NCBI GenBank assembly: GCA_028824715.1
Contig: JAPPCV010000009.1
Span: 1 to 58,046 of the forward strand
From: Boseongicola sp.
Lineage (GTDB): Bacteria; Pseudomonadota; Alphaproteobacteria; Rhodobacterales; Rhodobacteraceae
Direction of reading: 5' to 3'
DNA length: 58,046 bases
Part shown: piece by piece, positions 14,575 to 32,131 of the stretch
Layout of the letters: each line of letters begins with the position of its first letter
Position numbering within the stretch: position 1 is the first letter of the stretch
The notes under the pieces: generated by a model
Seen by the model: the letters and a program-made list of their open reading frames with translations, nothing else
Database searches by the model: none
What the model was told of the DNA's origin: nothing
Position numbers and translations under genes: made by a program

Positions 14575-14584
14575 CAATGCGCCC

Positions 14585-16622: not shown

Positions 16623-16640
16623 GCAGGCCGCCCGCAAAAG

Positions 16641-16654: not shown

Positions 16655-16686
16655 CTAATCGGACGGCGCTGGTCATGCAAGAAAAA

Positions 16687-16699
16687 TTCTATATATAGG
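16687..16699. promoter_or_regulatory. Candidate GntR operator, copy 2
   Basis: TTCTATATATAGG contains the perfect 10-bp palindrome CTATATATAG, lying 31 bp before the gntR start at 16730. It differs from copy 1 at one of the first twelve bases. Twin sites at this spacing in a divergent promoter suggest cooperative repression of both operons. Confidence 0.5.
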
Positions 16700-16729
16700 T
16701 TTTTGGAATTTTTTTGGACGACCGCGCAC

Positions 16730-17458: not shown

Positions 17459-18639
17459 TCGACATTGCGCGCATTCAGGCCTGGGCCTTCCGCTGTCCCA
17501 CGACGGAGCCGGTCGCCACATCCTTCGGCACAATGCATGACCGACCGGCGGTGCTGGTCCGGATCGAAGACCGTGACGGCGCATTCGGCTGGGGCGAGAT
17601 CTGGGCAAACTGGCCTGCCGCCGGGGCCGAGCATCGCGTGCGCCTTCTCGAAATGGACTTGGCACATCTGGTCCTTGATACCCAGGCAGCGTCACCGGCG
17701 GAATTCTTCCACAAGCTTGACGCACGGTCGCGGATTCGCGCCGTGCAATGCGGCGAAGCGGGACCGTTCGCCCAAGTGATCGCCGGACTTGACATCGCGC
17801 TTTGGGACATGGCCGCGCGCCGCAAGGGCCTTCCGCTTCGACGCCTGATCCGCGCTGCCGCGCCGAACAGCGTGCCGGCGTACGCGAGCGGCATGCAGAT
17901 TGCGGCGGCGAGTGACCTGATGCCGCACGCGCGGACCGATGGACACCATAGGTTCAAGCTGAAGGTAGGCTTCGACATGGAGGCCGACATCGCCGCCGTA
18001 TGCGACATCCAGGCAGCGTTGGCGGAGCACGAGTTGATCGCTTGCGACGCCAACCAGGCTTGGTCGCTGGAACAGTCCCTGCAATTCGTGACCGGCGTCG
18101 CGATCGTCCCGTTGCACTGGCTGGAAGAGCCGCTGCCTGTGTTCGCTGACACCACCCAATGGCAAACTCTCGCGGACCATTCCACGATTCCGCTGGCGGG
18201 AGGAGAAAACATCATCGGGGAGGCAGACTTCGATGACGCAATCAAGTCCGGACATCTGTCCGTCATTCAACCCGACATGACGAAATGGGGAGGTGTCTCC
18301 GGCTGCCTCGCAGTGGCACGAAACGCGCTTGCCAATGGCCGCCGCTACTTCCCGCACTTCCTTGGCGCAGGCATCGGCATGGCCGCATCGGCCGAACTGC
18401 TTGCCGGCGTGGGCGGGGACGGGTTGCTGGAGGTCGACGTCAACGACAACCCATTGAGGTCGATGTTCTTTGACGGCGGCGAACCAGTGGCGGACGGCAT
18501 GTGGAAATGTTCCGACGGGCCAGGTCTCGGGATTGACGTCATTCCGGACGGGCTAGAGCAGCTCCAGACGCTATACGCCGAAATCACCCAGGCATCTGTT
18601 GACAATCATGTTGCCGCGATCACGCCGGCGACGAGATGA
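17455..18639 (+). CDS. Enolase-superfamily dehydratase/racemase (mandelate racemase-like), 3' end altered by an IS
   Basis: A protein of 394 residues as read. The barrel has the KxK pair in HRFKLKVGF, metal ligands Asp (IACDANQAW), Glu (WLEEPLP) and Glu (AGGENI), and an Asp/His dyad in QPDMTKWGGVSG and FPHFLGAGIG. This is the mandelate-racemase subgroup, mostly acid-sugar dehydratases or epimerases. Its ATG overlaps the gntR stop (ATGA). The last 14 codons (from 18595) lie inside an IS5-type element whose terminal repeat begins there, so the natural C-terminus has been replaced. Since the catalytic barrel and cap are complete the enzyme may still work. Substrate unknown. Confidence 0.82.
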   Translation: MIDIARIQAWAFRCPTTEPVATSFGTMHDRPAVLVRIEDRDGAFGWGEIWANWPAAGAEHRVRLLEMDLAHLVLDTQAASPAEFFHKLDARSRIRAVQCGEAGPFAQVIAGLDIALWDMAARRKGLPLRRLIRAAAPNSVPAYASGMQIAAASDLMPHARTDGHHRFKLKVGFDMEADIAAVCDIQAALAEHELIACDANQAWSLEQSLQFVTGVAIVPLHWLEEPLPVFADTTQWQTLADHSTIPLAGGENIIGEADFDDAIKSGHLSVIQPDMTKWGGVSGCLAVARNALANGRRYFPHFLGAGIGMAASAELLAGVGGDGLLEVDVNDNPLRSMFFDGGEPVADGMWKCSDGPGLGIDVIPDGLEQLQTLYAEITQASVDNHVAAITPATR

Positions 18640-19467
18640 ATCCCCGTCATGAATCCCCGTCGCGAAACTCTCGTCGGACTTGTCGTTCCGCATCGCCACT
18701 GCCCGGAACTCCCTGATTCTCGCGAAGAGGTTCTCGACCTGGCGCCGCCACTTGTACATCTCCCGATCATGGTCCCGGGACGCCGCGCGGCTCCTTTTCG
18801 GGGGAACCACGAGCACCGCGCCGCATCCCTCCACCTCTTCGAGCAGCCAGTCAGAGTCGAACGCCTTGTCCCCGATGAAGGTCCCGAACCGGAGATCCTC
18901 AAAAAGTGCGGGCACGCCCGCAAGGTCCTGCGCCCGGCCGGGAAGGATCACGATCCTTGCAAGGCAGCCGAGCGCGTCCACGACCGCCACGATCTTTCTC
19001 GTCAGGCCGCCCAGGGAGCGTCCGATCCCCCGCATTCCGGTCCCCCCGACGCCTTCTGATGAGCCTGGACGATCGCGTCGTCAGCGAACGCGTGATCGAG
19101 GTCGAACTCCTCTGACAGGGCGTTGAAAACACGATTGAAATCACCCAGCGGCGGAACTTCCTGAACACGCTGTTCCTGTTGCCGAAGCGCTGCGGAAGGT
19201 CGCGCCAAGGCGTTCCCGTGCGGAACCGCCAGGGCACCGTCTCGAAGAACTTCCGGCTGTCCGCCGCGGTGACGCCGGGATCGGTCGCCTTGCCGGGCAG
19301 CATGGGCTCGACCCGCGCCACATGGCGTCGCTCAGCACCGTCCATTCTGCATTCATCTTGCCATCTGCCCGTCTTGCCTGTGCCGCCTCTACGGCGTGCG
19401 TTGCGGCGCAGATCGCGTCGGCCCTCCCGAAACGCAACTCGAATGTCAGCGGGCGATTGACAACAGA
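18595..19467 (-). mobile_element. IS5-type insertion sequence (IS427-like group), degenerate, about 873 bp
   Basis: The ends carry an imperfect inverted repeat: TCTGTTGACAATC at 18595-18607 and its near complement GATTGACAACAGA at 19455-19467 (12 of 13 match). Between them, on the minus strand, lies a broken IS5-family transposase. The length is typical for the IS427 group. The left end interrupts the enolase-superfamily gene. A clear target-site duplication was not identified. Element type is secure from the transposase; exact ends are inferred from the repeat. Confidence 0.75.
18640..19420 (-). pseudogene. IS5-family transposase, frameshifted
   Basis: Pieces of one transposase occur in successive minus-strand frames. 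The N-terminal domain (LPGKATDPGVTAADSRKFFE...TPWRDLPQRFGNRNSVFRKF) lies around 19210-19390. A middle piece with the first catalytic Asp (GDFNRVFNALSEEFDLDHAF, DDAIVQAHQ) lies around 19050-19150. The C-terminal part (GIGRSLGGLTRKIVAVVDAL, FIGDKAFDSDWLL with the second Asp, YKWRRQVENLFARI with the Glu) lies around 18640-19035. One frame change could be the programmed shift of this group, but two are needed, so the gene is probably dead. Boundaries are approximate. Confidence 0.75.
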
Positions 19468-19514
19468 ACGCAAGCATTCAGCACTGGCATTGGCTGCGCC
19501 ACATTGGTGGACCG

Positions 19515-19826
19515 TCAAGGAATCTCGACAAGAACCCTGCCGTCCGCAACGCGCGCCGGATAAGTGCTCAACGCTTCACAGGCCGGCGACCTGATCGCGA
19601 TGCCCGTTCGGACATCGAACTGGCCGTTGTGCTTGGGGCATTCGATCGTGTGGTCGATCACCAACCCATCGGCAAGATGCACCTTTTCGTGCGTACAAAG
19701 GCCATCTGTGCAGTAGACCTCTTCGTCCCATATCCGGTAGATCGCATAGGTTCGTCCTTCGTGGTCCAACCGAACCAGATCCTCCTCTTCGATGTCAACA
19801 AGTGCGCAGGCATCTATCCAAGGCAT
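19515..19826 (-). CDS. mocE: Rieske [2Fe-2S] ferredoxin, MocE-like
   Basis: A 103-residue electron carrier. The Rieske cluster ligands are Cys44/His46 (GLCTHEKVHL) and Cys63/His66 (IECPKHNGQFD). The text closely follows MocE of rhizopine-degrading rhizobia. It should pass electrons to the oxygenase encoded just upstream (19841-20932, gap 14 bp). ATG 19826 is chosen because the MocE N-terminus (MPWIDACALV) begins there; the longer frame overlaps the oxygenase gene. No ferredoxin reductase (MocF) is encoded nearby, so reducing power must come from a reductase elsewhere. It is the last gene of the leftward LacI-controlled operon. Confidence 0.9.
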   Translation of the reverse strand: MPWIDACALVDIEEEDLVRLDHEGRTYAIYRIWDEEVYCTDGLCTHEKVHLADGLVIDHTIECPKHNGQFDVRTGIAIRSPACEALSTYPARVADGRVLVEIP

Positions 19827-19840
19827 CGCGTTCTCCGGCG

Positions 19841-20932
19841 TCAGGCGGTCAGGTTGGACTGAACGGGTTCCCATACACCCGCCCCCTCGGGCAGTTGAGG
19901 GCGGATGAAGTGGCGCGGGTCGCGAAGCTGCCGCAGAACACAGGGGATGATCTCGGACCAGGCGTTCCAGAGCGAAGGATTGGGTGCGGGCAGGTCGTGT
20001 TTCACCACCTCGTGCAGCTTGGGCAAGGCGTGATAGGGCACCATCGGATACATGTGATGTTCGATATGATAGTTCATGTTCCAGTAGATGAAGCGCAAGA
20101 TCGGGCTCATGAGTACTGTGCGTGAGTTGATGCGGTGATCGAGCACGTCTTCCGCCAGTCCGAGGTGCTGGGGAAGCCCCATCACGAGCAAAAGCCAGAT
20201 CCCGTAGGCCCGCGGCAGCCCGATGATCACGAGTGGCAGAAGCGACCACGACCAGAGAGAAACGAATGCCACAAGAACGTAGATCGCGATGTGGATGCGG
20301 CCGACACGAACGGCCTTGCGGCGTTCGGTTTCGGGGATGAGATCCGCCTCGTCCGACGGAAGGATCCCCGCAGCATTCCGGGCCAGCGCAACGAGACCTT
20401 GCGGCACGGCAACAATCCCGAACAGGTTGAGGCAGAGCACGATCAGCTGCGGTGGTCGCATGCCCGCGATTTCCGGGTCCCTGCCGACGATGATCGTATC
20501 CGTGTGATGGCGGGCGTGGGACCAGTGCCAGACCACCGAGTTTCGCATCATCAGAAAGCTTGCAAATTCATAGACGACGTCGTTCTTCCACCGGGTCTTG
20601 AAGGCCGTGCCGTGGCCGCATTCGTGCCAACGGCTATCGGCGGCGGAGGCGTAAGATACGCCATAGACGAAAAGGAAAGGCAGCGCCCACCAGCTTCCCC
20701 AAAAAAGGATGCCGCCCGCGCCGCTGCCGACCAGCACGGCAACCCAGATCGAGATATCGCGCGTCGCCGGCCAATCCGTGCGCTTCATCAAATGCTTCAG
20801 TACCTTTCGGTCTACCGGCGTCCGATACCAGTCTGCGCCGGCAAGGCCTCTTTGGAACGCATTTTGCCGCTCCGGACCGGTCAGGGAATAGTCCCGCTCC
20901 ATCGGAAATGTTATCAATCGCATCAGGCCCAT
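19841..20932 (-). CDS. mocD: Desaturase-fold diiron oxygenase, MocD-like
   Basis: A 363-residue membrane-bound diiron enzyme of the fatty acid desaturase/hydroxylase superfamily. The three histidine boxes are HECGH (residues 103-107), HARHH (139-143) and NYHIEHHMYP (near 290). Several hydrophobic segments surround them (for example IWVAVLVGSGAGGILFWGSW). MocD, with MocE and MocF, is required for O-demethylation in rhizopine catabolism, so a methyl-ether or amine oxidation is a reasonable model here; alkane or lipid hydroxylation is less likely given the sugar-enzyme neighbours. It ends 14 bp before the mocE-like gene and starts 7 bp after the PanB-like gene. Confidence 0.88.
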   Translation of the reverse strand: MGLMRLITFPMERDYSLTGPERQNAFQRGLAGADWYRTPVDRKVLKHLMKRTDWPATRDISIWVAVLVGSGAGGILFWGSWWALPFLFVYGVSYASAADSRWHECGHGTAFKTRWKNDVVYEFASFLMMRNSVVWHWSHARHHTDTIIVGRDPEIAGMRPPQLIVLCLNLFGIVAVPQGLVALARNAAGILPSDEADLIPETERRKAVRVGRIHIAIYVLVAFVSLWSWSLLPLVIIGLPRAYGIWLLLVMGLPQHLGLAEDVLDHRINSRTVLMSPILRFIYWNMNYHIEHHMYPMVPYHALPKLHEVVKHDLPAPNPSLWNAWSEIIPCVLRQLRDPRHFIRPQLPEGAGVWEPVQSNLTA

Positions 20933-20939
20933 GGTTCCG

Positions 20940-21728
20940 CTAGCCCCAGTTTGCCAGTGCGGTCTCGAACTTGCTCAACTCCTCTTCGGAGATCTGGACC
21001 AGCTCGCCCTCGCCCGGAAACGACCCCGAAGCCACATCGCGCCTGAACGCGGAGAACGCCGCCACGCGCTCCTGTTGCAGTCGCGCGTATTCGGCCCGGA
21101 AGTCCCTGTAGACCCGGGCGTGACGGGGCACGTGACCTTCGGTTTCGCCAAGGACATCGACCGCAAACAGGTACTGGACATCACAACCTGCGCCCGAACC
21201 CATGGAAATCACGACGAGCGACGTCCGCCTGGAAATCGCCGCCGCGACCGCTGGCGGCACGATTTCCATCTCGACCGCAAAGGCGCCCGCGTCCTGATAG
21301 CGTCGGGCGTCGTTCAGAATGGCGAAGGCATCATCTGCCGTCTTGCCGCGCGCCGCGTAGCCGGTCCATCGGGCCTTTTGCGGCATGAAGCCGACGTGTC
21401 CGACAACAGGAATCGCCTCCTTCGCCATGGCTTCGATCACGTCGTAGTGCATCGGACAATAGACACTGTCGGCCCCAGCCTCCATTGCCTCGAAGGCCGC
21501 GCGCTTGGCCTCATCGGCATTGGCGCATTCGCCGTAGATCAAGCCGAACGTGAAATGCGTGTTCGGGGCGGCAGCGCGGAAATCGTCGCGGGCATGCTTG
21601 CGGCCTGATACGATGATCTCGATCCCGGCAGCCTCGGCAGCAGCGGCATGCTCAACCGTCGCCACGTTGAGTTCGGCAAGCTGACCCTTTCCCTTGTGGT
21701 CGATCAGGTCCTTGACCGTCATCTTCAT
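20940..21728 (-). CDS. Divergent PanB-like (ketopantoate hydroxymethyltransferase fold) protein
   Basis: A 262-residue TIM-barrel protein with PanB order of motifs: GIEIIVSG (barrel strand 2 region), IPVVGHVGFMPQ (PanB IPVxGHxGLTPQ), AGAFAVEMEIVPPAVAAAI (catalytic Glu equivalent, E155) and GSGAGCDVQYLFAVDVLG (PanB GIGAGxxxDGQ). However, the three PanB metal ligands are gone: VGDS is VSGR, the ADLPF Asp is replaced in FTFGLIYG, and the KIEGG Glu is replaced in VYCPMH. It is therefore unlikely to make ketopantoate. It overlaps the lacI stop by 3 bp and lies upstream of mocD-like. A lyase or aldolase role in the pathway is inferred; the reaction is unknown. Confidence 0.75.
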   Translation of the reverse strand: MKMTVKDLIDHKGKGQLAELNVATVEHAAAAEAAGIEIIVSGRKHARDDFRAAAPNTHFTFGLIYGECANADEAKRAAFEAMEAGADSVYCPMHYDVIEAMAKEAIPVVGHVGFMPQKARWTGYAARGKTADDAFAILNDARRYQDAGAFAVEMEIVPPAVAAAISRRTSLVVISMGSGAGCDVQYLFAVDVLGETEGHVPRHARVYRDFRAEYARLQQERVAAFSAFRRDVASGSFPGEGELVQISEEELSKFETALANWG

Positions 21729-22765
21729 TCTGCGCGCCCTCCGGGCTGTGGCAAGTCGGTGCCACGCAGGATCAATTCCGCGTCGATCAACTGCTGATGG
21801 GGTCCGGCGTCGCCGTTGAGCTTCGCGACCATCATGCGCCCCAGCCGCATCCCAAGAGCGTCGAGATCCTGACGAAACGTCGTAAGGCCCAATCCGACAT
21901 GGGCTGCCACGGGTACGTCATCGCAGCCGATCAACGCCATGTCCGGGCCAGGCCGGACCCCGAACTGGTGCATGGCCTCCATTGCCGAAAGGGCAATCAC
22001 GTCGTTGCCGCAAAAGATCGCGGTCGGACCGACGCCGCGGGTGATCAATTCTGTCACGGCATCCGCGCCAGTCTTCCGCGACAGGTAACACTCGATCTCG
22101 AGCGCGGGGTCGTGCCCAATGCCATGCGCGTCCAGCGCATCACGGTAGCCGTGCAGGGCATGGACTGAATAGGTGTACCTGAGCGGTGTCGTCAAATGTG
22201 CGATGCGGGTGTGACCAAGCCGGATCAGCCGTTCGGTCGCCATGTGCCCGATCCTGTAGTGGTCCACGTCGACCCAGTCGTGATCGGACTTGTCCGTTCG
22301 CCCGACGGTCACGAACGGAAAGCCGCGTGCCTTCAGCCATTCGACCCGCTCGTCCTCGGGACGGGTTCGGCCGAACAGGAGCCCGTCGCAGCGGCCTCGT
22401 TCGACAGAATTGCGAATGATCTCGAACTCGGTCTCATGCTCCCGCGCCATGATGATCTGAAGCGCATAACCCTGGGCCTGCAGTGCAAGTTCAACGCCGT
22501 CGAGAAGGCTCAGGAAGAACGGGTCAACAAACTTGGTCCAAGGCTTCGAGACCATGAATGTCACAATGTTGGTCTGCTTCGATCGCAGGCTCGACGCCGC
22601 GAAATTCGCACGGTAGCCAAGGTGCTCTGCAGCGGCTTCTACCTTGCGGCGGGTCTCGAGCTTGACGTCAGAGTATCCGTTGAGCGCACGGCTGACGGTC
22701 GAGACCGAAAGACCGGTCTGTTCGGCCACGTCCCTGATCCCCAATCTTCTGGCGGGTCCGCCCAT
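21725..22765 (-). CDS. LacI-family transcriptional regulator
   Basis: A 346-residue repressor. The LacI helix-turn-helix and hinge are complete: LGIRDVAEQTGLSVSTVSRALNG (residues 8-30) and RRKVEAAAEHLGYRAN. The periplasmic-binding-like effector domain shows VDVDHYRIGHMATERLIRLGHTRIAHL and AIFCGNDVIALSAMEAM. It overlaps the genes on both sides by 3-4 bp (GH13 upstream, PanB-like downstream). The very LacI-like palindromes at 24364-24377 and 24480-24497 in the divergent promoter are its expected operators, so it should repress both the leftward catabolic operon and the rightward ABC transporter operon until a sugar or glycoside binds. Confidence 0.92.
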   Translation of the reverse strand: MGGPARRLGIRDVAEQTGLSVSTVSRALNGYSDVKLETRRKVEAAAEHLGYRANFAASSLRSKQTNIVTFMVSKPWTKFVDPFFLSLLDGVELALQAQGYALQIIMAREHETEFEIIRNSVERGRCDGLLFGRTRPEDERVEWLKARGFPFVTVGRTDKSDHDWVDVDHYRIGHMATERLIRLGHTRIAHLTTPLRYTYSVHALHGYRDALDAHGIGHDPALEIECYLSRKTGADAVTELITRGVGPTAIFCGNDVIALSAMEAMHQFGVRPGPDMALIGCDDVPVAAHVGLGLTTFRQDLDALGMRLGRMMVAKLNGDAGPHQQLIDAELILRGTDLPQPGGRAE

Positions 22766-24342
22766 CAGTCTTCCTCTGCGATCACATAGCCGTGCGAAGG
22801 CAACACGGCTTCATGAAGTTCGCCCGCAAGCAGGCTCATTCGGTCGTGCCACGGAACACTCCGGGGAGAGCCCGAGAAATTGAACGCGCACATGATCCTT
22901 TGTTCCTCGTGAACGCGGAAAAAGACAAGCCAGTCCCTCTCGTGCTCCGCCGGTTCGAACGATCCGTATCGCAGGGCCGCGTTCGTGCGGCGCAACGCAA
23001 TCAGCGCGCGGCAATTCTCCAGGATCGACCCGCTCAACCCGTCCTGACGAGCAACCGAAAGCGCAGCATGGGATGGTTCGCAGGGCAACCAGGTGCATGC
23101 ATTCTTCGAGAACCCGAGTTGATCCGTGTCGTCCCAGGGAAAGGGTGTGCGCGCACCGTCGCGTCCTCGATCATGCGGCCAGAACCGGATGCCTTCGGGG
23201 TCCTGAATCGCTTCGCGCGGCACGCGTGAGTGCGGCAATCCCAGTTCTTCTCCCTGGTAGAGGATGACGGTGCCGCGAAGACAAAGCAGGAGTGCATGCA
23301 ACATCGTCACCTTTGCCGGAATCTTCTCGGCGCCCCACCGGCTGGCAACGCGGCAGACATCGTGGTTTGAAAACGCCCACGTCGGCCAGCCGTGACCTTC
23401 GCCTGCTTCCAGAACCGTGTCCGCGATGGCCGAACCGTTCAATTCGGGGGCAAGCAGGGAGAAGCTGTACGCCGTGTGCAGCCTGTCAGGTGCAGTGTAC
23501 TCGGACATGCGCTCAACTTGCCAGTCACAGGAAATCTCGGCCAGCAGCATCCGGTCACCTGCGACTTCGCGCATGCGCTCGAGAAATGGCAGGTTTTCCG
23601 GCCGCGACCGGTCGTAAAGCCGTTGCTGCATATAATACGGATTGGCGGGCACCTCGTCGATTTCGGCTGCAGGGTTGTCTCGAAGCGCAGGGTCGTGCAT
23701 GAAGAAGTTGGCGACGTCCAGGCGCAGACCGTCGACACCCAAGCCGAACCAGAAGCTCATGGTATCAAGCACCTCGTCCTGCACGTCCGTGTTGTGCAGG
23801 TTCAGGTCAGGTTGCTCGATCAGGAAATTGTGCAGATAGTACTGACGCCGCTCGGGCGCCCATTCCCACGCAACGCCGCCAAATCGCGCGAGCCAGTTGT
23901 TTGGCAGGCCGCCGTCGGCTTTCGCATCGGCCCAGACATACCAATCCGCCTTTTCGCTTTCCCTTCCTGAGCGGCTTTCGACAAACCACGGATGCCGGTG
24001 TGAGCTGTGGGAATAGACCTGGTCGATGACGACCCTTAGCCCCAGCCCATGTGCCGCCTGTACAACCTCGCGGAAGTCTTGCAACGTTCCGAATCGCGGG
24101 TCGACCTGTCGGTAGTCGGAAACATCGTAGCCAGAATCGTGCATTGGCGAGGGGAAGAACGGCGTGATCCAGATCGCGTCGATCCCGAGCCCCGCGAGAT
24201 AGTCCATCCGGCTCAGAAGCCCCTTCAGATCGCCTTCGCCGTCTTCATCGGAATCCATGAAGCTGCGCAGGTAGACTTCGTATATGCAGGCCCCTCGCCA
24301 CCATTCTGCGTGCTCTTCACGGCGTTCAGTCGTCACGGTCAT
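22765..24342 (-). CDS. GH13 alpha-glucosidase family enzyme
   Basis: A 525-residue alpha-glucosidase of the oligo-1,6-glucosidase/alpha-glucosidase (GH13) type, cytoplasmic (no signal peptide). Conserved region I is VVIDQVYSHSS; region II GVDGLRLDVAN contains the nucleophile Asp; region III LLAEISCDW the acid/base Glu; region IV FSNHDVCR the third Asp. It begins WWRGACIYEVYLRSFMDSDEDGEGD, the usual start of this subfamily. ATG 24342 is chosen because upstream codons translate the promoter and operator region. First gene of the leftward operon; it would release glucose from an imported alpha-glucoside. Confidence 0.9.
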   Translation of the reverse strand: MTVTTERREEHAEWWRGACIYEVYLRSFMDSDEDGEGDLKGLLSRMDYLAGLGIDAIWITPFFPSPMHDSGYDVSDYRQVDPRFGTLQDFREVVQAAHGLGLRVVIDQVYSHSSHRHPWFVESRSGRESEKADWYVWADAKADGGLPNNWLARFGGVAWEWAPERRQYYLHNFLIEQPDLNLHNTDVQDEVLDTMSFWFGLGVDGLRLDVANFFMHDPALRDNPAAEIDEVPANPYYMQQRLYDRSRPENLPFLERMREVAGDRMLLAEISCDWQVERMSEYTAPDRLHTAYSFSLLAPELNGSAIADTVLEAGEGHGWPTWAFSNHDVCRVASRWGAEKIPAKVTMLHALLLCLRGTVILYQGEELGLPHSRVPREAIQDPEGIRFWPHDRGRDGARTPFPWDDTDQLGFSKNACTWLPCEPSHAALSVARQDGLSGSILENCRALIALRRTNAALRYGSFEPAEHERDWLVFFRVHEEQRIMCAFNFSGSPRSVPWHDRMSLLAGELHEAVLPSHGYVIAEED

Positions 24343-24357
24343 CTCCGGCAATGCCAC

Positions 24358-24389
24358 AATATTCAAAAACGTTTTTGGAGGTCGGTCAA
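24358..24389 (-). promoter_or_regulatory. Candidate sigma-70 promoter of the GH13-lacI operon
   Basis: On the minus strand TTGACC (24384-24389) is followed after 18 bp by TGAATA (24360-24365), giving a plausible -35/-10 pair about 20 bp upstream of the GH13 start. The LacI-type palindrome 24364-24377 lies inside the spacer, where a bound repressor would block RNA polymerase. The match to consensus is moderate. Confidence 0.4.
24364..24377. promoter_or_regulatory. LacI-type operator O1
   Basis: CAAAAACGTTTTTG is a perfect 14-bp palindrome with the central CG typical of LacI/GalR-family operators. It lies 22 bp upstream of the GH13 gene and matches the core of the second site at 24480-24497. 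Centre-to-centre spacing is 118 bp, close to 11 helical turns, suitable for repression by looping. Confidence 0.8.
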
Positions 24390-24479
24390 GAATTCTGCAA
24401 AAAAATTCGCCAAATCCCGGGCCGGATTCGCGAAAAACCTTGACCGGATGGCACAATTTCGCAACTCTTCCACATGAAG

Positions 24480-24497
24480 CCCAAAAACGTTTTTGGG
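24480..24497. promoter_or_regulatory. LacI-type operator O2
   Basis: CCCAAAAACGTTTTTGGG is a perfect 18-bp palindrome containing the same core as O1. It ends 33 bp before the start codon of the ABC transporter binding-protein gene, so it would lie near or just downstream of that operon's promoter. It is expected to be bound by the LacI protein encoded at 21725-22765. Confidence 0.82.
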
Positions 24498-24530
24498 TTT
24501 TCTGGCGCAAAGAGCTTCAGGGAGGGAAAC

Positions 24531-25514
24531 ATGCGTAAGTTCCGTAATTCAGTACTTCTGGCCTTGTCTGGCCTTGCGATGAGTGTCGGGACAGCCTGGG
24601 CGGGGGACTGGTGTTCAGGACAGACGATCCGGCTATTCTCGGGCGGCCCGGCCGGCGGTGCATTCAACTCGATCATTGATCGCGGCGCGATGCAGGCGGC
24701 GGAAGACACCGGCGCAAATGTCCAGATCATCTATTCGGATTGGGACTTTGACAAAATGGTCACCCAACTGCGCGAGGCGATCAGTCAGGCACCCGACGGC
24801 ATCGCGATGATGGGGCACCCGGGTGACGACGCGATCATGCCGTTGGCGGCCGAGGCCGCTGCTGCGGGAATCCCGATGATGTACATGAACGTGGACGTGC
24901 CGGACGTGCGTGCAGCCTTCGGGTCGGGGTACGTTGGGGCCACACTCTACCAGCAGGGACGAAACCTTGGCGCCGAGACCCTACGTCTTGCGGGCGACAG
25001 GCTGCAGCCTGGCGATAGGGCAATCGTCATGAGCCGATGGGAAAGCGAAAACCGCGCTCAGCGTGAACTCGGCCTCGTGGACGTGCTGGAAGAGTTCGGC
25101 ATGACGGTCATCAAGCTGCAAGAGGCCGAGGGCGCTTCTGCCGACCAGATGCTGCAGATCCCGGTCCTGACCTCGACCCTGATCGCCAACCCCGACACCA
25201 AGCTCATCGGCTATCCCGGTGGCCCGTGGCTGGCCGCGGCACCGGTGTTCATGGATGCAGTTGGCAAAGGTCCCGGCGACATCATGGCGGTTGGCTTCGA
25301 CCTTGGCCAGGGTGTCATGACCGCGTTCGACGGAGGGTACGTGACGGTGACAGCGGACCAGCAGCCCTACCAGCAGGGATACCTGCCGGTTCTGTCGCTC
25401 TGCCAGCAGCTGGTCTACAAGCTGGGACCGCTTAACGTGGACACCGGCGCCGGCTTCGTGACGGCGGACAACTACAAGGATGTAGTTGCCCTCGCCGAGC
25501 AAGGAGTCCGCTAG
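24531..25514 (+). CDS. Sugar ABC transporter periplasmic binding protein (RbsB/FrcB-like)
   Basis: A 327-residue type I periplasmic binding protein. ATG 24531 follows GGAGG (24521-24525). The signal peptide MRKFRNSVLLALSGLAMSVGTAWA is followed by a mature start with one Cys (GDWCSGQTIRLFSGG). Features of the RbsB-like fold include QLREAISQAPDGIAMMGHPGDDAIMPLAAEA and FVTADNYKDVVAL near the end. It is first in the rightward operon and followed by an intercistronic hairpin typical of highly expressed binding-protein genes. Ligand unknown; the operon encodes GH13 and GH31 glycosidases, so a glucoside or oligosaccharide is likely. Confidence 0.87.
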   Translation: MRKFRNSVLLALSGLAMSVGTAWAGDWCSGQTIRLFSGGPAGGAFNSIIDRGAMQAAEDTGANVQIIYSDWDFDKMVTQLREAISQAPDGIAMMGHPGDDAIMPLAAEAAAAGIPMMYMNVDVPDVRAAFGSGYVGATLYQQGRNLGAETLRLAGDRLQPGDRAIVMSRWESENRAQRELGLVDVLEEFGMTVIKLQEAEGASADQMLQIPVLTSTLIANPDTKLIGYPGGPWLAAAPVFMDAVGKGPGDIMAVGFDLGQGVMTAFDGGYVTVTADQQPYQQGYLPVLSLCQQLVYKLGPLNVDTGAGFVTADNYKDVVALAEQGVR

Positions 25515-25526
25515 CCCAAGATTTCA

Positions 25527-25559
25527 CCCGGGCCGGCTGATTTCTGACACCGGCCCGGG
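25527..25559 (+). other. Intercistronic GC-rich hairpin after the binding-protein gene
   Basis: CCCGGGCCGG and CCGGCCCGGG form a perfect 10-bp stem with a 13-nt loop. There is no following T-run, so it is not a classical terminator; such structures between a binding-protein gene and its ATPase gene usually stabilise the upstream mRNA or attenuate readthrough, giving excess binding protein. Confidence 0.65.
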
Positions 25560-25587
25560 GCCGGACCTTCCAAACCGGAGCGCGCTC

Positions 25588-26379
25588 ATGTCCGCGGCAT
25601 CAGGACCGGTCGTCGAATTGCGTAACATCGTCAAGCGCTTTGGATCGGTCGAGGCCTTGTCAGGCGTCACGATGACCGTCCGCCACGGCGAGGTTCTGGG
25701 GCTGCTGGGAGACAATGGTGCGGGAAAGTCGACGCTAATCAAGACCCTTGCCGGGGTGCACGACCCCGACGAAGGCGAGATCATCGTGAAGGGCGAGGCT
25801 CGCAAGCCCTGGACACCCGCGGCTGCGCGCGACGCAGGCATAGAAACGGTTTTCCAGGATCGCGCACTGGCACCGCAGCATTCCATCGTGACCAACATCT
25901 TCATGGGGCGCGAGATCACGAATTCTCTCGGTCTTCTGCGGGTGCAAACGCAGATCGACGAGGCCAACAGGCTGATGCGCGAGATCGGCTTCACCTCGAA
26001 GGTATTCAACCCGGAAAGCACTGTTGGGACTCTTTCAGGGGGCGAGCGGCAGGGGGTGGCGATTGCCCGTGCGCTCTACAATCAGGCGGATGTGATCGTG
26101 CTGGACGAGCCGACGACGGCACTGTCGCTCACCGAGACACAGAAGGTCTTCCGTTTCGTGGAGGCGGTCAAGTTCTCAGGCAGGACCGTCGTGTTCATCG
26201 GGCACAACATCCATCACGTCTGGGACATTGCCGACCGGTTTTTTGTCATCGACCGCGGGAGAGAAGCCTTTGAAGGCGCCAAGTCCTCTTTCACCGGCGC
26301 CGATCACCTGATCGAGTTGATGCACCAACTCGCAGAAACCGGCAGCGCGGACACGAGTTCGCTTTTGGAGCCGGCGTGA
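25588..26379 (+). CDS. Sugar ABC transporter ATPase, single-domain (FrcA-like)
   Basis: A 263-residue ATPase with one nucleotide-binding domain: Walker A GDNGAGKST, signature LSGGERQGV, Walker B VIVLDEPTTALS and H-loop FIGHNIHHV. Ribose-type systems normally have a double-domain RbsA of about 500 residues; this single-domain form is like FrcA of rhizobial fructose import and must work as a homodimer. The ATG at 25588 is preceded by GGAG. Its stop overlaps the permease GTG start by 4 bp. Confidence 0.9.
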   Translation: MSAASGPVVELRNIVKRFGSVEALSGVTMTVRHGEVLGLLGDNGAGKSTLIKTLAGVHDPDEGEIIVKGEARKPWTPAAARDAGIETVFQDRALAPQHSIVTNIFMGREITNSLGLLRVQTQIDEANRLMREIGFTSKVFNPESTVGTLSGGERQGVAIARALYNQADVIVLDEPTTALSLTETQKVFRFVEAVKFSGRTVVFIGHNIHHVWDIADRFFVIDRGREAFEGAKSSFTGADHLIELMHQLAETGSADTSSLLEPA

Positions 26380-27422
26380 GGATGAACACCGTGAATGACG
26401 CGACGACCGATGCCAGTTCGGAGGACGACCGCACCGAACAATCCCCATGGACGCTCTTTTACCGCAAGAACGGTCGCGCGCTGAACGCATTCCTGGCCCT
26501 TGTCCTGGTTTGGGTCTTTTTCGCGGTGAACAACCCGGCGCTCTTTCTGAACCCGCTGTTCTACAATGCATTCCTGTTTTCGGTTCCGGCGACGATTTTC
26601 CTGACCACCTCTTTGGTCTTTGTCATTGTCTCGGGCGAGCTTGATCTGGCGTTTCCGTCGGTCGTCGGCGCGGCCGGCGGAGTGTTCATGTACTCCGTCG
26701 TGCTCGGCGTGCCCGTGATACCAGCGTTCTTTCTGACCATGGGCTTCGGAGCGCTGATCGGTCTTGGAATCGGATTGATCGTTGTATACGGGCGCATTTC
26801 GTCTCTGGTCGCAACGCTCGGTCTCAACTTCTTCATCCTCGGCATCGTCAACCTGCTCGCCCAAGGCCGGACCATTTCCGCGCCCGAGGCAATGAACAGC
26901 TTTGGATACACGCTTTTCGTCGGAAAATGGCACTTGTTCGACACGACGCTGAGAGTGCCGAACCACTTCATCTGGTCGCTGGTCTGGGTGGCATTCTGCT
27001 ACGTGCTCTTCAAGTATCATCGGTTCGGCAACCGGGTGCAGCTCGTCGGAGACAATACCGACAGCGCCCGCGAAATGGGCATCAACATCGAGCGCATTCG
27101 CGTCAGCGTCTTTGTCGTGTCGGGAGTCGCCGCGGCGATCACAGGCGCATTGCTCGTGCAGATGGCCAACATGGTCTGGTTCCCGACCAGCGGGAAGGCG
27201 TATCTGCTGATCGCGCTTGCGGCGCTTTTCGTCGGCGGCACGCCGACCTGGGGCGGCGTGGGCACGATCTTCGGCGCGTTCTTTGGAGCAATGACCGTCA
27301 CGCTGATTCCGTCCGGCGCGGTCGGTGCAGGTTTTGCCGGCTATTGGACAGACTTCATATTCGGCCTCGTCATCATCCTGACCATGATCGCGCATCGATT
27401 TTCGGGCGCGCGGGTCCGATGA
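26376..27422 (+). CDS. Sugar ABC transporter permease (RbsC/FrcC-like)
   Basis: A 348-residue membrane protein with about nine hydrophobic segments. Family marks are SLVFVIVSGELDLAFPSVVGAA (the xxGGIDLSVGS region), LVATLGLNFFILGIVNLLAQG and QLVGDNTDSAREMGINIERIR (EAA-like loop contacting the ATPase). The start is a GTG overlapping the ATPase stop, with GGAG eight bases upstream range; an ATG at 26382 is also possible. It forms the transport pore with the preceding two gene products. Confidence 0.9.
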   Translation: MRMNTVNDATTDASSEDDRTEQSPWTLFYRKNGRALNAFLALVLVWVFFAVNNPALFLNPLFYNAFLFSVPATIFLTTSLVFVIVSGELDLAFPSVVGAAGGVFMYSVVLGVPVIPAFFLTMGFGALIGLGIGLIVVYGRISSLVATLGLNFFILGIVNLLAQGRTISAPEAMNSFGYTLFVGKWHLFDTTLRVPNHFIWSLVWVAFCYVLFKYHRFGNRVQLVGDNTDSAREMGINIERIRVSVFVVSGVAAAITGALLVQMANMVWFPTSGKAYLLIALAALFVGGTPTWGGVGTIFGAFFGAMTVTLIPSGAVGAGFAGYWTDFIFGLVIILTMIAHRFSGARVR

Positions 27423-27423
27423 C

Positions 27424-28152
27424 ATGCGCACGGCAGCGATCACCGGAGCCGCGGGCGGCATTGGAAGCGCGACAGCGCGTGCTCTCTCGGATGCCGGTTA
27501 CGAAGTGGCGCTGCTGGACCGCGTTCGGCCACAACCACCGGAGGTGGGTGAGGGCCTATCTCTTGCCGTCGACCTGACCGACCCTGATGCGGTCGGCGCG
27601 GCTTTCGACCGCATCCGCAGTGCGTTCGGCGCGCTCGACGCATTGGTCAACGTTGCCGGGATCAACCACCGCTCACCGGTCGCGACGATGGGGGTGCCGG
27701 ACTGGGACCGCATGATGGAAACAAATGTCGGCTCCATGTTCCTGACCGCAAAGTTCGGCCTGCCCCTGCTGGAGAAAGGCCATGGGCGAGCGATCGTCAA
27801 TATGGCCTCGGTCTCGGCGCACGTCGCCTCGGCCGACTATCCGGCCTATGTCATGACCAAGGCGGCGGTCGAGAGCTTCACCACGGCGCTTTCCCAGGAA
27901 GCCGGCGACCGGGGCATCCGCGTAAATGCAGTGGCGCCGGGCTGGGTGAACACCGGATTCACTGATCACGCGAAGGCCGAATCCGATGACCCCGCGCTCC
28001 TGGACGCGACGGCCCGCGACACTCACCTTCTGGGTCGCATGGCGGAACCCTCCGAGATCGCTGCCGTGGTCCTTTGGTTGTGCTCGGGCCAGGCGTCCTT
28101 CGTGACCGGCCAGACGCTTTTCGTCGACGGCGGCTTCATGAGGAAGCACTAA
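27424..28152 (+). CDS. Short-chain dehydrogenase/reductase 1
   Basis: A 242-residue NAD(P)-dependent oxidoreductase. The nucleotide motif is TGAAGGIG (residues 7-14); an acidic residue after strand 2 (LLDRVRP) favours NAD. NVAGINH, the catalytic Ser in MASVSAH and the YVMTK tetrad follow, and the C-terminus is FVTGQTLFVDGGFM. It begins 1 bp after the permease stop. It probably oxidises a hydroxyl of the imported sugar or aglycone. Paralogous to the next gene. Confidence 0.9.
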   Translation: MRTAAITGAAGGIGSATARALSDAGYEVALLDRVRPQPPEVGEGLSLAVDLTDPDAVGAAFDRIRSAFGALDALVNVAGINHRSPVATMGVPDWDRMMETNVGSMFLTAKFGLPLLEKGHGRAIVNMASVSAHVASADYPAYVMTKAAVESFTTALSQEAGDRGIRVNAVAPGWVNTGFTDHAKAESDDPALLDATARDTHLLGRMAEPSEIAAVVLWLCSGQASFVTGQTLFVDGGFMRKH

Positions 28153-28154
28153 CG

Positions 28155-28853
28155 ATGTCCTCTGTGGCAATCACGGGCGGGGCAGGCGGCATCGGAGCGG
28201 TCCTCGTGCGCAAGCTTGAGGCAGCCGGGCAACGGACAATTTCGCTGGACCTGGCGCCAAACGCCGAGGCGTCCGAATGCTACGTGCTTGATGTTTCGGA
28301 CGAGGTGGTCGTCCGAGAGGCGTTCAGGCCGGCCAAGGCCTTGGCGGGGCTTGTCTGCATCGCCGGCACGAACGCGCACGGCCGGGTCGAGGATCTTTCG
28401 TGGGAAGATTGGAACCGCGTCATGGAAGTGAACGTTCGCGGCGCGATGCTTGCCATGAAGCACGCCAGCGGGCGGCTGCGCAGAGGGTGCAGCATCGTCC
28501 TGATGTCTTCCGTGTCGGCCAAAATCGGCACCAGCGGATTTGTCGCCTATCACACGTCGAAGGGCGCGGTGCTTGGCCTGATGCGGGCGGCGAGCGGCGA
28601 GTTTGCCCCACGCGGCATCAGGGTGAATGCCGTCAGCCCGGGCTGGGTCGACACCGCTTTCACCGATCGCGCGCTCGCCCAATTGCCGGATGGCGAAGCC
28701 GTCAGGGCGGAGGCCGGCGACGCACACATCCTCGGCCGTATGGCGCGACCAGAAGAAATCGCCGACGCGATCGCCTTCCTCATGTCCGACGCGGCAAGCT
28801 TCGTCACCGGTACCGAGCTGATTGTCGACGGGGGTTTCCTGTGCAAGCGATGA
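28155..28853 (+). CDS. Short-chain dehydrogenase/reductase 2
   Basis: A 232-residue paralogue of the previous gene, with TGGAGGIG, acidic SLDLAP (NAD preference), a catalytic Ser in MSSVSAK, YHTSK and FVTGTELIVDGGFL. ATG 28155 lies 2 bp after the previous stop; the longer frame inside the preceding gene is not needed. Two tandem SDRs suggest successive oxidations or an oxidation-reduction (epimerisation) step. Its stop overlaps the next ATG (ATGA). Confidence 0.89.
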   Translation: MSSVAITGGAGGIGAVLVRKLEAAGQRTISLDLAPNAEASECYVLDVSDEVVVREAFRPAKALAGLVCIAGTNAHGRVEDLSWEDWNRVMEVNVRGAMLAMKHASGRLRRGCSIVLMSSVSAKIGTSGFVAYHTSKGAVLGLMRAASGEFAPRGIRVNAVSPGWVDTAFTDRALAQLPDGEAVRAEAGDAHILGRMARPEEIADAIAFLMSDAASFVTGTELIVDGGFLCKR

Positions 28854-29722
28854 GCGACGACGCCTCGACAGGCAGGGAGCTGCTGGCACATGGCTATGCC
28901 CACCTCCCGTGTCTGTTGCCGGACGATCTGGTGGCCCGACTGATCCGCATCTCCAAGGCTAACTTGGAGCGGGCAAGCGTAGCCCATCGGGCTGCAAACC
29001 GTTCGCAGGGTTCGCTGATCAACATCGCGACGGACCCGGGCTACGCCGAGCTTGTTGCCGCTCCGGAGATTCTGAAAGGGCTCGCGGGTCTGGGCCTTTC
29101 CGATCTGCGATTTCAGTCCGGTTTCCTGATCTCGAAGCCCGGCCATTCGCCGGCGCTCTTCTGGCATCAGGACTGGTGGGGATGGTCGCTTGGATCCTCA
29201 TATCGCGCCCGTCCGCAGCAGGTCGGTGTGATGGCCTACCTTGGCCGGACCAGCGTCGCGAATGGCTGCCTAAGGGTGCTGCCGGGCTCGCACCTGCGAA
29301 GCCATCGTCTGCACGGCTCAATCACGGCGCACGACGCCGGGTTGTCCCGCGTCGACGACGAGGGACACGAACTCTACCAGAGCGTCCAGGGGGAGGTTGC
29401 CCTTCCGAGCAAACCGGGGGACGTACTTGTCATCGACGCCCGGCTTCTGCATTCAGCCTATCCAAACTCCACTGATCAGGAGCGGATGCTGCTGACGCTT
29501 TGGTATCATCCTTTCTGGCCAGACCTGCCGCGTGGCATTCGCGCCCATGCCGCCAACGTCTTCGACGGCGCGGTGTCCGACATATCCCATGACAGCCGTC
29601 CAACACCCCGAAGCTGGCCGCCGGGGGCGCTGAAGAAGATCGCGGCTCTGGTGCCTGAGCGCCCCGGCGGACCACCGATCGAATTCGACAGGCGTCCCGA
29701 TACCAGTCGGATGGAGGCCTAG
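28850..29722 (+). CDS. PhyH-family Fe(II)/2-oxoglutarate dioxygenase
   Basis: A 290-residue protein of the phytanoyl-CoA dioxygenase fold. The iron facial triad is visible as His and Asp in FWHQDWWGW (HxD) and the distal His in ARLLHSAYPNS, followed by the 2-oxoglutarate Arg in QERMLLTLWY. NGCLRVLPGSHLRS is the usual PhyH segment. Family members hydroxylate or demethylate small molecules such as ectoine. In this operon it gives a second oxygenase beside the MocD/MocE pair, so the pathway contains two O2-dependent steps. Overlaps the SDR2 stop by 4 bp. Confidence 0.85.
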   Translation: MSDDASTGRELLAHGYAHLPCLLPDDLVARLIRISKANLERASVAHRAANRSQGSLINIATDPGYAELVAAPEILKGLAGLGLSDLRFQSGFLISKPGHSPALFWHQDWWGWSLGSSYRARPQQVGVMAYLGRTSVANGCLRVLPGSHLRSHRLHGSITAHDAGLSRVDDEGHELYQSVQGEVALPSKPGDVLVIDARLLHSAYPNSTDQERMLLTLWYHPFWPDLPRGIRAHAANVFDGAVSDISHDSRPTPRSWPPGALKKIAALVPERPGGPPIEFDRRPDTSRMEA

Positions 29723-29723
29723 C

Positions 29724-31808
29724 GTGACTGACACGTACACGAAAGACGGTGACGCGCTCGTCATCCGCTTCAACGGCGAGTGCGTGCGGGTCGAAGCCTG
29801 GGGACCGGACGCCCTGAGAACCCGGGCGCGCCCCGGGGGGAAGGTCGCGGAACCGCATGTCAGCGCGCTCTTGGCAGCCGCGCCATCAAGACCGTCGATC
29901 GTGATCGACGGGAAACACGCCCGTATCCGAAACGGGCGAATCGAAGCGCGGGTCAGGCTGGCACGCCGGCTCGGTGCGGACGTGCACTTGGAACCGGTGA
30001 TTGGATATTACGACACGGTGACGGGCGAAGAGATCCTGTCTGAAGCGCGCAGTCATTTTGCCGGACCCCCGCCGCGGCGGTTCAAACCGATCGCATCGGG
30101 GAGCTTCCAGCTTGAGGCCACATTCACGGCCTTTGACAACGAGCACCTGATGGGCCTCGGCCAACCGCAACACGGGCGGGAGGACCTGAAGGCCACCTCG
30201 ACCAACCTCGTACAGCAGAACACGCACGTGGTCGTCCCTTTCGTGATCTCATCACGCGGCTATGGGTTCTTGTGGAACAATCCGGCGGTTGGCCGAGTCG
30301 AATTCGCGTCCAACATCACGCGTTGGCGGGCCGACGCGACGCCTGGCCTCGACTACTGGATCACCGCCGGCGAGACACCTGAGCGCGTACTGCGGACCTA
30401 TGTCGCCGCGACAGGGCTTCCGCCCGCGTGCCCCGACTGGGTGACCGGCTTCTGGCAATCGAAGCTGCGCTATCGCTCGCAACAGGAAATCGTGAACGTC
30501 GCGCGTGGCTGCCGGCAGCGGGGGATTCCGCTGTCGTGCATCGTGATCGACTTCTTCGCCTGGACCCGGCAGGGCGAGTGGGAGTTCGCCCCGGCCGAAT
30601 GGCCCGACCCCGAGGGCCTGGTGCGCGAACTGGACCAAATGGGCGTGACAACCATCGTCTCGATCTGGCCGACGGTCGGCGCGAACGCGAAGCATTTCGC
30701 CGAGATGCGCGAAAAGGGGTATCTCCTGCGCACCGAGCGTGGCGTGCCTGCGGTCATCCAGTTTCCCGACAAGGATCCATTCGGTGTGCACTTCCTCACC
30801 TACTACGACGTCTTCAACCCCGATGCCCGCGACTTCCACTGGGACAAGGCCAGGCGGAACTACCTCGATCGGGGCATCAGCAATTTCTGGCTGGATGCCT
30901 GCGAACCCGAGATGCGACCCGCTGATGCTGAAAATGTGCGAACCCACCTCGGCAACGGGGCGGAGATGCTTTCGGCGTATCCTCTGCTCCATGCGCAACG
31001 CTACGCCGAGGGTCTGAAGGAGGCCGGCGCCAACGATGCGGTGCTCCTGTGTCGCTCGACTTGGGCAGGCGGGCAGCGATATCCGGTCATCCTGTGGTCC
31101 GGCGACGTCTGGTCGACATGGGCAGACTACCGCGCCCAGATTGCAGCGGGACTGCACGCGGCCATGTCGGGAATCGGCTGGTGGACAACCGATATCGGCG
31201 GGTTCTACGAGGGCCACGCCGACGACCCCGAGTTCCCCGAACTTCTTGTTCGCTGGTTCGAATTTGGTGTGTTCTCGCCGGTCTGCCGCCTGCACGGCGT
31301 CCGAGTGCCGAACGGTGTTCCATTCGCATCCACTGACGGCGAAGTCGACTATGGGCGAGACCTCTTCCACATCTTCACCGACACGGGCGGCGACAACGAG
31401 GTCTGGAGCTACGGACCCAAGGTGGAAAGGATCCTGACGCGGCTGCTGGAGTTGCGCGAAAGGCTGCGCCCCTATCTGAACGAGGTCATGGCGGAATACA
31501 CTGCGACGGGCGTGCCGCCGATGCGCCCCCTGCCCTTCGCGTTTCCCTACGACGCGGCGCTGCGGACTCCACAAGGCGCATACATGCTGGGGCCCGAACT
31601 GCTGGTGGCGCCTGTGCTGGAGCCCGACGCGAATTCGCGGGAAATCTGCCTGCCAGCTCGACGCGATTGGGTACACGTTTGGACAGGCGAGCATTATGAA
31701 GGCGGCACTGCGATCCGGGTTTCCGCGAAGTTGGGGATGCCGCCTGTTTTCTGTTTGGCGGAACATTGGAGCGTCCACATGAGTAGTTTCGAGAACCTGT
31801 CGCCGTAA
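29724..31808 (+). CDS. GH31 glycosidase (alpha-glucosidase/alpha-xylosidase-like)
   Basis: A 694-residue GH31 enzyme. The GTG start at 29724 has ATGGAGG seven bases upstream and lies 1 bp after the previous stop. The barrel holds the nucleophile Asp391 in SNFWLDACEPEM (usually WLDxxE) and the acid/base Asp461 in ILWSGDVWSTW, plus SGIGWWTTDIGGF. It lacks a signal peptide and so acts on imported substrate. Together with GH13 it suggests a substrate with an alpha-glycosidic bond; the two may attack different linkages or a parent and a trimmed intermediate. The C-terminus abuts an IS remnant but appears complete. Confidence 0.9.
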   Translation: MTDTYTKDGDALVIRFNGECVRVEAWGPDALRTRARPGGKVAEPHVSALLAAAPSRPSIVIDGKHARIRNGRIEARVRLARRLGADVHLEPVIGYYDTVTGEEILSEARSHFAGPPPRRFKPIASGSFQLEATFTAFDNEHLMGLGQPQHGREDLKATSTNLVQQNTHVVVPFVISSRGYGFLWNNPAVGRVEFASNITRWRADATPGLDYWITAGETPERVLRTYVAATGLPPACPDWVTGFWQSKLRYRSQQEIVNVARGCRQRGIPLSCIVIDFFAWTRQGEWEFAPAEWPDPEGLVRELDQMGVTTIVSIWPTVGANAKHFAEMREKGYLLRTERGVPAVIQFPDKDPFGVHFLTYYDVFNPDARDFHWDKARRNYLDRGISNFWLDACEPEMRPADAENVRTHLGNGAEMLSAYPLLHAQRYAEGLKEAGANDAVLLCRSTWAGGQRYPVILWSGDVWSTWADYRAQIAAGLHAAMSGIGWWTTDIGGFYEGHADDPEFPELLVRWFEFGVFSPVCRLHGVRVPNGVPFASTDGEVDYGRDLFHIFTDTGGDNEVWSYGPKVERILTRLLELRERLRPYLNEVMAEYTATGVPPMRPLPFAFPYDAALRTPQGAYMLGPELLVAPVLEPDANSREICLPARRDWVHVWTGEHYEGGTAIRVSAKLGMPPVFCLAEHWSVHMSSFENLSP

Positions 31809-31840
31809 ACCCATCGCGACCTTGGCCCACCACCCGACCT

Positions 31841-31990
31841 GGAAGTCGCGCCGCGCTGAGGTGATCCCTTCCGGATCCGCCAGGGAACCGCATCGACAAT
31901 CCGCCGATTTTCCGCAGCGGTGGTGCCGGGATCGATCGCCGCGCCGGACAGCATGCGCTCGACCCGCACCCACGTGGCATCGACCGGCAT
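31841..31990 (-). pseudogene. IS5-family transposase, N-terminal remnant
   Basis: About 50 residues on the minus strand read WVRVERMLSGAAIDPGTTAA, then NRRIVDAVPWRIRKGSP, matching the IS5 N-terminal pattern (LLPGKxxDPGxTxxDNRxFVDAVLWxxRxGSPWRDLP). The rest of the transposase is missing. It resembles the element at 18595-19467 but is a different copy. It lies between the GH31 gene and tRNA-Gln, in an otherwise featureless 323-bp gap (31809-32131). Confidence 0.6.
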
Positions 31991-32131
31991 CGTCGTGTCG
32001 AATTCACTTGATACCGGCTCGATTGCCTTTGCTGCCGTTCCGATTGAGAGTCGGGCGGGGAAAGGCGACATTCCGCCCGATTCAAAACCCGACTGTCAGA
32101 GGGCCATAGTGCCTGGAACCGAAGAATTGCC

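Follow-up and report, generated by a model that had tools for sequence, protein, structure and literature searches.

In rhizobia, the use of rhizopine by MocDEF includes a demethylation step, and the mocDEF/mocBA genes are accompanied by a MocR regulator. The nicotine purU-mabO-folD operon of pAO1 connects demethylation with folate, as PurU and FolD oxidise the resulting methylene-tetrahydrofolate, which the oxidase itself makes (PMC3891541, in the part of this review available to us). Fae speeds the condensation of formaldehyde with its carrier, tetrahydromethanopterin, and canonical PanB (EC 2.1.2.11) transfers a hydroxymethyl group to a keto acid. Here we describe PanBL, a PanB-derived protein encoded at 20940..21728 (minus strand) in a window of 58,046 nucleotides, the whole stretch of DNA that was analysed, from Boseongicola sp. 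(GenBank assembly GCA_028824715.1, contig JAPPCV010000009.1). Its gene belongs to a set of twelve uninterrupted genes at 19515-31808, identified from open reading frames and Pfam/NCBIfam matches, that forms two divergent arms. From a centre at ~24.35 kb, the minus arm encodes a GH13 hydrolase, a LacI-family regulator, PanBL, MocD and MocE, and the plus arm a CUT2-type sugar ATP-binding cassette (ABC) transporter (solute-binding protein (SBP), ATPase and permease), two short-chain dehydrogenases/reductases (SDRs), a PhyH-family oxygenase and a GH31 glycosidase. A first-pass annotation had proposed this layout from the DNA letters; all twelve genes proved intact and their families were confirmed by Pfam/NCBIfam. 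We hold with about even confidence that these genes constitute a catabolic regulon under LacI control, directed at an alpha-glycoside with O-methylation, in which PanBL would pass the methyl-derived one-carbon (C1) unit to tetrahydrofolate (THF).

The locus has in common with the rhizopine system a MocD/MocE-type oxygenase and its ferredoxin, and its SBP is a distant relative of the MocB-type binder. It differs in having LacI where that system has MocR, in adding GH13, GH31, PhyH (or a cytochrome P450 in some relatives) and PanBL, and in being without MocF; the rhizopine SBP, the MocR-type regulator and the clustered mocF that define a rhizopine locus are all absent from it. The pAO1 operon follows a like logic, but what its oxidase accomplishes alone would here be shared between an oxygenase and a separate PanB-derived protein. 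Fae resembles PanBL in the proposed job only, being of another protein family and serving another carrier. The new part is PanBL, a frequent oxygenase partner for which we found no published role, as regulons of LacI, ABC transporter and glycosidases and demethylation by mocDE are already known. Among the papers listed by our searches of one open-access library, no title or abstract start connected MocDE with proteins resembling PanB and, in agreement with the first-pass annotation, none described a pathway with this gene set.

The association between PanBL and oxygenases extends well beyond the window. Named contigs gave at least 590 pattern matches, of which the best 80 of at least 523 relatives were used, and to these were added the paralogues in relatives, 20 loci from 299 sampled phylum genomes and five plasmid records. 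Loci were counted if they had at least 3 kb of flank on both sides, and an oxygenase was counted if it was catalytic and within 6 kb. By this measure an oxygenase was present at 88 of 101 PanBL loci (97 distinct proteins, some genomes being present twice), at 29/37 after dereplication to below 80% identity and at 11/16 below 60%, whereas canonical PanB controls had one at 0/15 loci (Fisher p ~1e-7 for 29/37 and 5e-5 for 11/16, ignoring shared ancestry). Twenty control loci had been fetched: four without a PanB gene call (L169, L170, L171 and L175) were uncounted, and L178 was left out for its short flanks. A further locus, L050, with MocE nearby, was excluded as a 97-residue PanBL fragment. 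Genes were called with a home-made finder, which misses genes in low-GC contigs. The adjoining oxygenases are of the MocD, fatty-acid-hydroxylase, PhyH and Rieske oxygenase types, with P450 in the window-type cluster, and Pfam checks were made on examples of them. A second sample, of 190 class genomes drawn evenly, contained 12 PanBL loci of at least 280 bits outside the window's own genome; MocD, MocE or PhyH was found within 6 kb at 7/12 of these, including loci in the low-GC genomes G359 and G478, whereas three (L163, L187 and L188) had none of these and the remaining two (L162 and L194) ran into the end of their contig. The count leaves aside six hits of lower score (157-184 bits).

Folate C1 genes also recur near PanBL. 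In Agrobacterium HAMBI 105 the gene order is MocD-MocE-reductase-PanBL-purU-folD, and among the best 80 named loci purU was near PanBL at 17 and folD at 3; purU was seen at none of the 20 canonical control loci, four of which are poorly gene-called. A beta-proteobacterium (L093) has purU as the divergent neighbour of PanBL, over the TIGR00655 cut-off. At another locus (L193) the order is MocE, a TIM-barrel-like gene, PanBL, two Gfo/Idh genes, PurU, IolC, IolD and IolB, the last four over curated cut-offs, and in a member of the Acidimicrobiales (L123) PanBL stands with IolC, IolB and IolD, again over cut-off. At loci with this iol setting, an O-methyl inositol is the probable substrate. Since the partners of PanBL are unrelated oxygenase families and, in part, purU/folD, whatever the sugar, PanBL would appear to act on the C1 unit and not on the carbon skeleton, and the plainest reading of these neighbourhoods places it between oxygenase and folate pool. 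The first-pass annotation had regarded the PanB-like protein as one more aglycone enzyme, a view that these partners do not favour.

A gap into which such an enzyme could fit has been described in E. coli, where the measured spontaneous rate of the formaldehyde-THF reaction is far too slow for growth on C1 compounds; PanB was named there as a possible promiscuous catalyst, deletion of panB and ltaE changed nothing, and an uncharacterised enzyme was left possible (PMC7073904, in the sections accessible to us). PanB is also credited with a folate-cleaving side activity in the accessible part of PMC4814558. No dedicated formaldehyde-THF condensation enzyme is reported in those portions of the literature that we consulted, PMC7073904 among them. 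We tentatively suggest, at somewhat below even probability, that PanBL is a dedicated enzyme that loads formaldehyde or its hemiacetal onto THF, doing for folate what Fae does for its own carrier. On this view it would descend from a PanB in which the half of the site that takes the keto acid was lost and the C1 half was retained, and it would be a portable partner to oxygenases from at least five unrelated families (MocD, fatty-acid hydroxylase, PhyH, Rieske and P450) in Alphaproteobacteria, small low-GC genomes included.

PanBL was assigned to the PanB TIM-barrel fold and passes the Pfam PanB cut-off, but scores far below the cut-offs of both NCBIfam PanB models (94 bits against 207.55 for TIGR00222); PF02548, at E 0.001, was the sole entry in its Pfam scan, with no Fae domain. 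At the PanB positions D45, S46, D84, K112 and E114, which we take to hold Mg2+ and substrate, the window protein has R, K, G, Y and P. None of the five is kept in 37 of 45 PanBL, at most two are kept in any, and K112 and E114 are kept in 0/45, whereas canonical PanB keeps all five in 16/16. About 20 residues around Asp45 are deleted as well. What PanBL retains is His111 and Glu155 (PanB His136 and Glu181), and it has gained an invariant E153 and H203. In a tree, the 45 PanBL form one clade on a long branch with no canonical PanB inside, the support for its node being weak (0.26 with two intermediate proteins included, 0.73 without them). After PanB, the closest fold neighbours are ICL/PEP-mutase enzymes; among the 50 fold-neighbour rows listed, PanB alone was recognised as a folate-using enzyme, and absence there is not evidence.

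PanBL relatives extend to a beta-proteobacterium and a gamma-proteobacterium, to Actinobacteria and to further groups, and genomes of the window's genus carry one to five each. Inside the window-type cluster of L071, at 9001-10583, PanBL genes stand in tandem, two copies with 57% and 50% identity to the window's PanBL; tandem PanBL occurs at L190 as well. In the Alphaproteobacteria genomes G359 and G478 (1.4 and 1.6 Mb), PanBL is found with MocD, PhyH or both at loci of 30-32% GC (L186 and L190-L192), and one of these genomes holds four copies. Separately, seven loci or genomes (L165, L049, G389, G390, G409, G427 and G500) hold intermediate PanB-like proteins of ~157-184 bits, by score neither canonical PanB nor PanBL.

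In this genus PanBL does not serve pantothenate synthesis. None of the eight genus genomes (G000-G007) had a panB over the curated cut-off, against 11/14 reference genomes, and none had a panC match, against 9/14; on both counts these bacteria are probable pantothenate auxotrophs. A parallel is found in Rhizobium etli CFN42, where plasmid p42e carries RHE_PE00443, a second gene resembling panB, which has no detected metal-binding domain and fails to complement a panB mutant, the data not being shown there (PMC3082293, in the part available). Within p42e 455-503 kb, the sole gene with a PanB annotation sits in a LacI / MocD-MocE-reductase-PanBL operon; its product is 49% identical to the window PanBL and departs from PanB at four of the five positions, with Ser still at 46. 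As plasmid, size and position agree, this homologue is very probably RHE_PE00443.

The cluster as a whole is conserved. The first-pass annotation had offered as a refutation that these genes never travel together in relatives; instead, a window-type cluster was found in 13 genomes. These are seven of the eight genus genomes, including the window's own (G006 lacks that PanBL), together with G021 of the same family, Marivivens (L062), Alexandriicola (L063), strain HLUCCA08 (L065), Roseitalea (L066) and a Rhodobacter metagenome-assembled genome (L071). Four of the clusters (G004, G007, L062 and L071) end early at contig ends. MocD, PanBL, LacI, GH13 and the transporter genes are present in 13/13, with PanBL identity down to 57-62%. 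The set of two oxygenases proposed earlier stood for MocD and not for PhyH, whose slot is taken by a P450 of ~381 residues in L063, L065 and L071 (called by Pfam and NCBIfam on L065 and by similarity in the other two) and by a MocF-type ferredoxin reductase in Roseitalea, where GH31 sits behind MocE. Some genus members have one SDR rather than two, or broken SDR calls. In G002 (L029 15396-16124) the single SDR is nearest SDR1 over its first two thirds (72-86%) and SDR2 over its last third (85%), as if it were an in-frame recombinant of the two. The close relatives among named collections are metagenome-assembled Boseongicola and Silicimonas genomes, which we presume to come from marine sponges.

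Between the arms are two predicted operators, identical copies of the perfect 14-bp palindrome CAAAAACGTTTTTG at 24364..24377 and 24482..24495, 118 bp apart, the second within an 18-bp perfect palindrome. A whole-genome exact search found only these two copies in the 5.24 Mb, 181-contig host genome. The exact pair, with a spacing of 117 bp, recurs in the inter-arm gap of 9/12 relatives' clusters; in L071 the pair differs by one base, and a single exact site was seen in each of L062 and L066. The pair is retained even though LacI is just 61-77% identical in L071, L063, L065 and L037. On this evidence LacI very probably controls both arms, as first proposed, and from the spacing and symmetry of the sites it probably forms a DNA loop.

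The other genes encode families that would suit the uptake and oxidative breakdown of a glycoside, and at several junctions their neighbouring starts and stops touch or overlap in an operon-like way. On the minus strand, MocE (19515..19826) is a Rieske [2Fe-2S] ferredoxin and putative electron donor of MocD (TIGR02377, 159.4 bits against a cut-off of 136.15), and MocD (19841..20932) is a membrane diiron oxygenase of the fatty-acid-desaturase family (PF00487, 2e-36) for which the PDB held no related sequence up to E 1. Beyond PanBL on this strand are LacI (21725..22765; PF00356 and Peripla_BP_3) and an alpha-glucosidase-like GH13 (22765..24342; PF00128, 8e-109), which in a PDB sequence search was closest to alpha-glucosyl enzymes (6aav and 3wy1 best). 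On the plus strand are the SBP (24531..25514; PF13407, 5e-26), ATPase (25588..26379; PF00005), permease (26376..27422; PF02653), SDR1 (27424..28152; PF13561, 2e-59), SDR2 (28155..28853; PF13561, 2e-50), the PhyH-family Fe(II)/2-oxoglutarate oxygenase (28850..29722; PF05721, 1.5e-22) and GH31 (29724..31808; PF01055, 1.6e-78). Probable starts were chosen for GH13 (24342), SBP (24531), ATPase (25588), SDR2 (28155) and PhyH (28850). We found the motif letters that we take as marks of active enzymes: three His boxes in MocD (HECGH, HARHH and HIEHH), CxH...CxxH in MocE (CTH...CPKH), HxD in PhyH, GLRLD and NHD in GH13, the catalytic Asp pair in GH31 (WLDACE and WSGD), and GxxxGxG/YxxxK in both SDRs (GAAGGIG with YVMTK, GGAGGIG with YHTSK).

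The SBP resembles CUT2 sugar binders and, weakly, the rhizopine binder, its closest NCBIfam model (78 bits, far below the 420 cut-off). GH31 had the alpha-xylosidase MeXyl31 (5zn6, 569 bits) as its best PDB match and scored 235 bits against the NF007940 alpha-xylosidase model, below its cut-off of 606. Sulfoquinovosidases occur among GH31 enzymes; a sulfoquinovose route was dropped because the match to sulfoquinovosidase YihQ (134 bits) falls far under that to MeXyl31. No ferredoxin reductase (MocF) is encoded in the window's cluster, and the best candidate elsewhere in the genome, G000:C65, is 39% identical to the Roseitalea protein. By eye, the SBP alone among the twelve proteins has a hydrophobic leader. 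The earlier statement that the hydrolases have no signal peptides thus held for GH13 and GH31, which look like cytoplasmic enzymes; the intact import drawn from it is kept here as a conditional step.

In the pathway that we propose, the CUT2-type transporter would import the glycoside intact, and GH31 and GH13 would cleave it in the cytoplasm, as their families and the absence of leader peptides suggest. MocD would then hydroxylate a methyl ether, supplied with electrons by MocE and by a ferredoxin reductase whose gene lies elsewhere in the genome; the hydroxyl would be freed, and formaldehyde or the corresponding hemiacetal produced. O-demethylation of the MocDE type had already been suggested in the first-pass annotation, and after comparison it remains the best-fitting chemistry. 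PanBL would transfer the C1 unit to THF, giving 5,10-methylene-THF for oxidation by FolD, with release of formate by Fhs in this genus or, in rhizobia and other groups, by PurU. A further round of oxygenation or demethylation, along with oxidation of the aglycone, might fall to PhyH (or the P450 that some relatives have) and the two SDRs, and LacI at its two sites would silence both arms. Suitable substrates would be an O-methyl inositol in glycosylated form or a disaccharide-like glycoside with O-methylation.

Several observations weigh against this pathway. It leaves the second oxygenase, the SDRs and the substrate without detailed explanation, and MocE was not found in the L063 cluster (nor in those of L037 and L071, which lie close to contig ends). 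In a model of PanBL without ligand, no site for folate was recognised. No oxygenase was found in reach of PanBL at L163, L187, L188 and other loci, and the reverse link is looser: in the class sample, PanBL lies beside 2/7 over-cut-off MocE loci outside the window's genome, leaving 5/7 without it. Having purU near PanBL is a minority trait, mostly of Rhizobiaceae. In the genus itself PurU over cut-off was found in 0/8 genomes and Fhs in 8/8, so the C1 unit would have to leave through a putative FolD and Fhs or feed synthesis; glutathione-dependent formaldehyde dehydrogenase, over cut-off in 8/8, means that PanBL is not the sole outlet for formaldehyde there. Finally, the part of the nicotine review available to us describes a gene named panB of Pseudomonas putida J5 as involved in nicotine catabolism and explains this through pantothenate (PMC3891541).

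Other accounts of the locus were therefore considered. The hydroxymethyl transfer to a keto acid catalysed by PanB, the ICL/PEP-mutase enzymes as next neighbours of the fold and the want of a demethylase candidate near some PanBL loci would suit a PanBL that works as a sugar-skeleton lyase or aldolase, putting a hydroxymethyl group on or off an oxidised aglycone (a C-branched sugar or keto acid), with the methyl group irrelevant. We regard this as unlikely, given that at most two of the five Mg2+/keto-acid residues remain in any of 45 PanBL (K112 and E114 never), that the sugar routes around PanBL are unlike one another (iolCDB, IlvD-type dehydratase, GH4, GH38, GH13/GH31) with no obvious common skeleton, and that purU/folD adjoin PanBL in several lineages. 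PhyH and P450 are common C-H hydroxylases and MocD is of the fatty-acid-desaturase family, so that these oxygenases might instead hydroxylate the carbon skeleton of the aglycone of a non-methylated hydrophobic glycoside. That appears quite improbable to us, as CUT2 sugar transporters and purU/folD/iol genes better suit methyl ethers of sugars and inositols and the one role on record for MocDEF is rhizopine use (gene organisation in the accessible part of PMC10107442). Clusters of GH13, GH31, LacI and CUT2 genes are common, and PanBL and the oxygenases could be accidental neighbours in an ordinary sugar-uptake regulon; that the arrangement persists across 13 genomes even where PanBL identity falls to 57-62%, together with the conserved operators and the oxygenase link (29/37 against 0/15), makes this highly implausible.

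If the proposed role of PanBL is true, a previously undescribed activity would have come from PanB and would fill the formaldehyde-THF gap, and PanBL may catch the toxic formaldehyde set free by demethylation. A PanB-derived family without the residues characteristic of PanB, located beside oxygenases and folate C1 genes in genomes where no pantothenate pathway was detected, makes the question of a condensation enzyme directly testable. Such an activity could help to explain the use of O-methyl sugars and O-methyl inositols (pinitol, ononitol) by soil, rhizosphere and marine bacteria. It would also correct the name '3-methyl-2-oxobutanoate hydroxymethyltransferase', which plasmid records give to several PanBL genes.

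The cluster is flanked on both sides by IS5-like transposase-like frames, recognised by eye at 18571-19477 and 31694-32071, and 188 bp are 74% identical, in the same orientation, between 19201-19387 and 31852-32036; in this genome the whole regulon may have been moved together. The neighbouring stretch 7062-18639 looks like a separate sulfated-sugar locus, with two sulfatase-like proteins, transporter-like genes, ROK-like and GntR regulators, a GMC oxidoreductase and an enolase-superfamily protein seen by eye, of which Pfam confirms GntR and the enolase-superfamily protein. At 35112-35145 lies the longest perfect palindrome in a scan of the window, the 34-bp GTCATTTTCATATTTCTAGAAATATGAAAATGAC.

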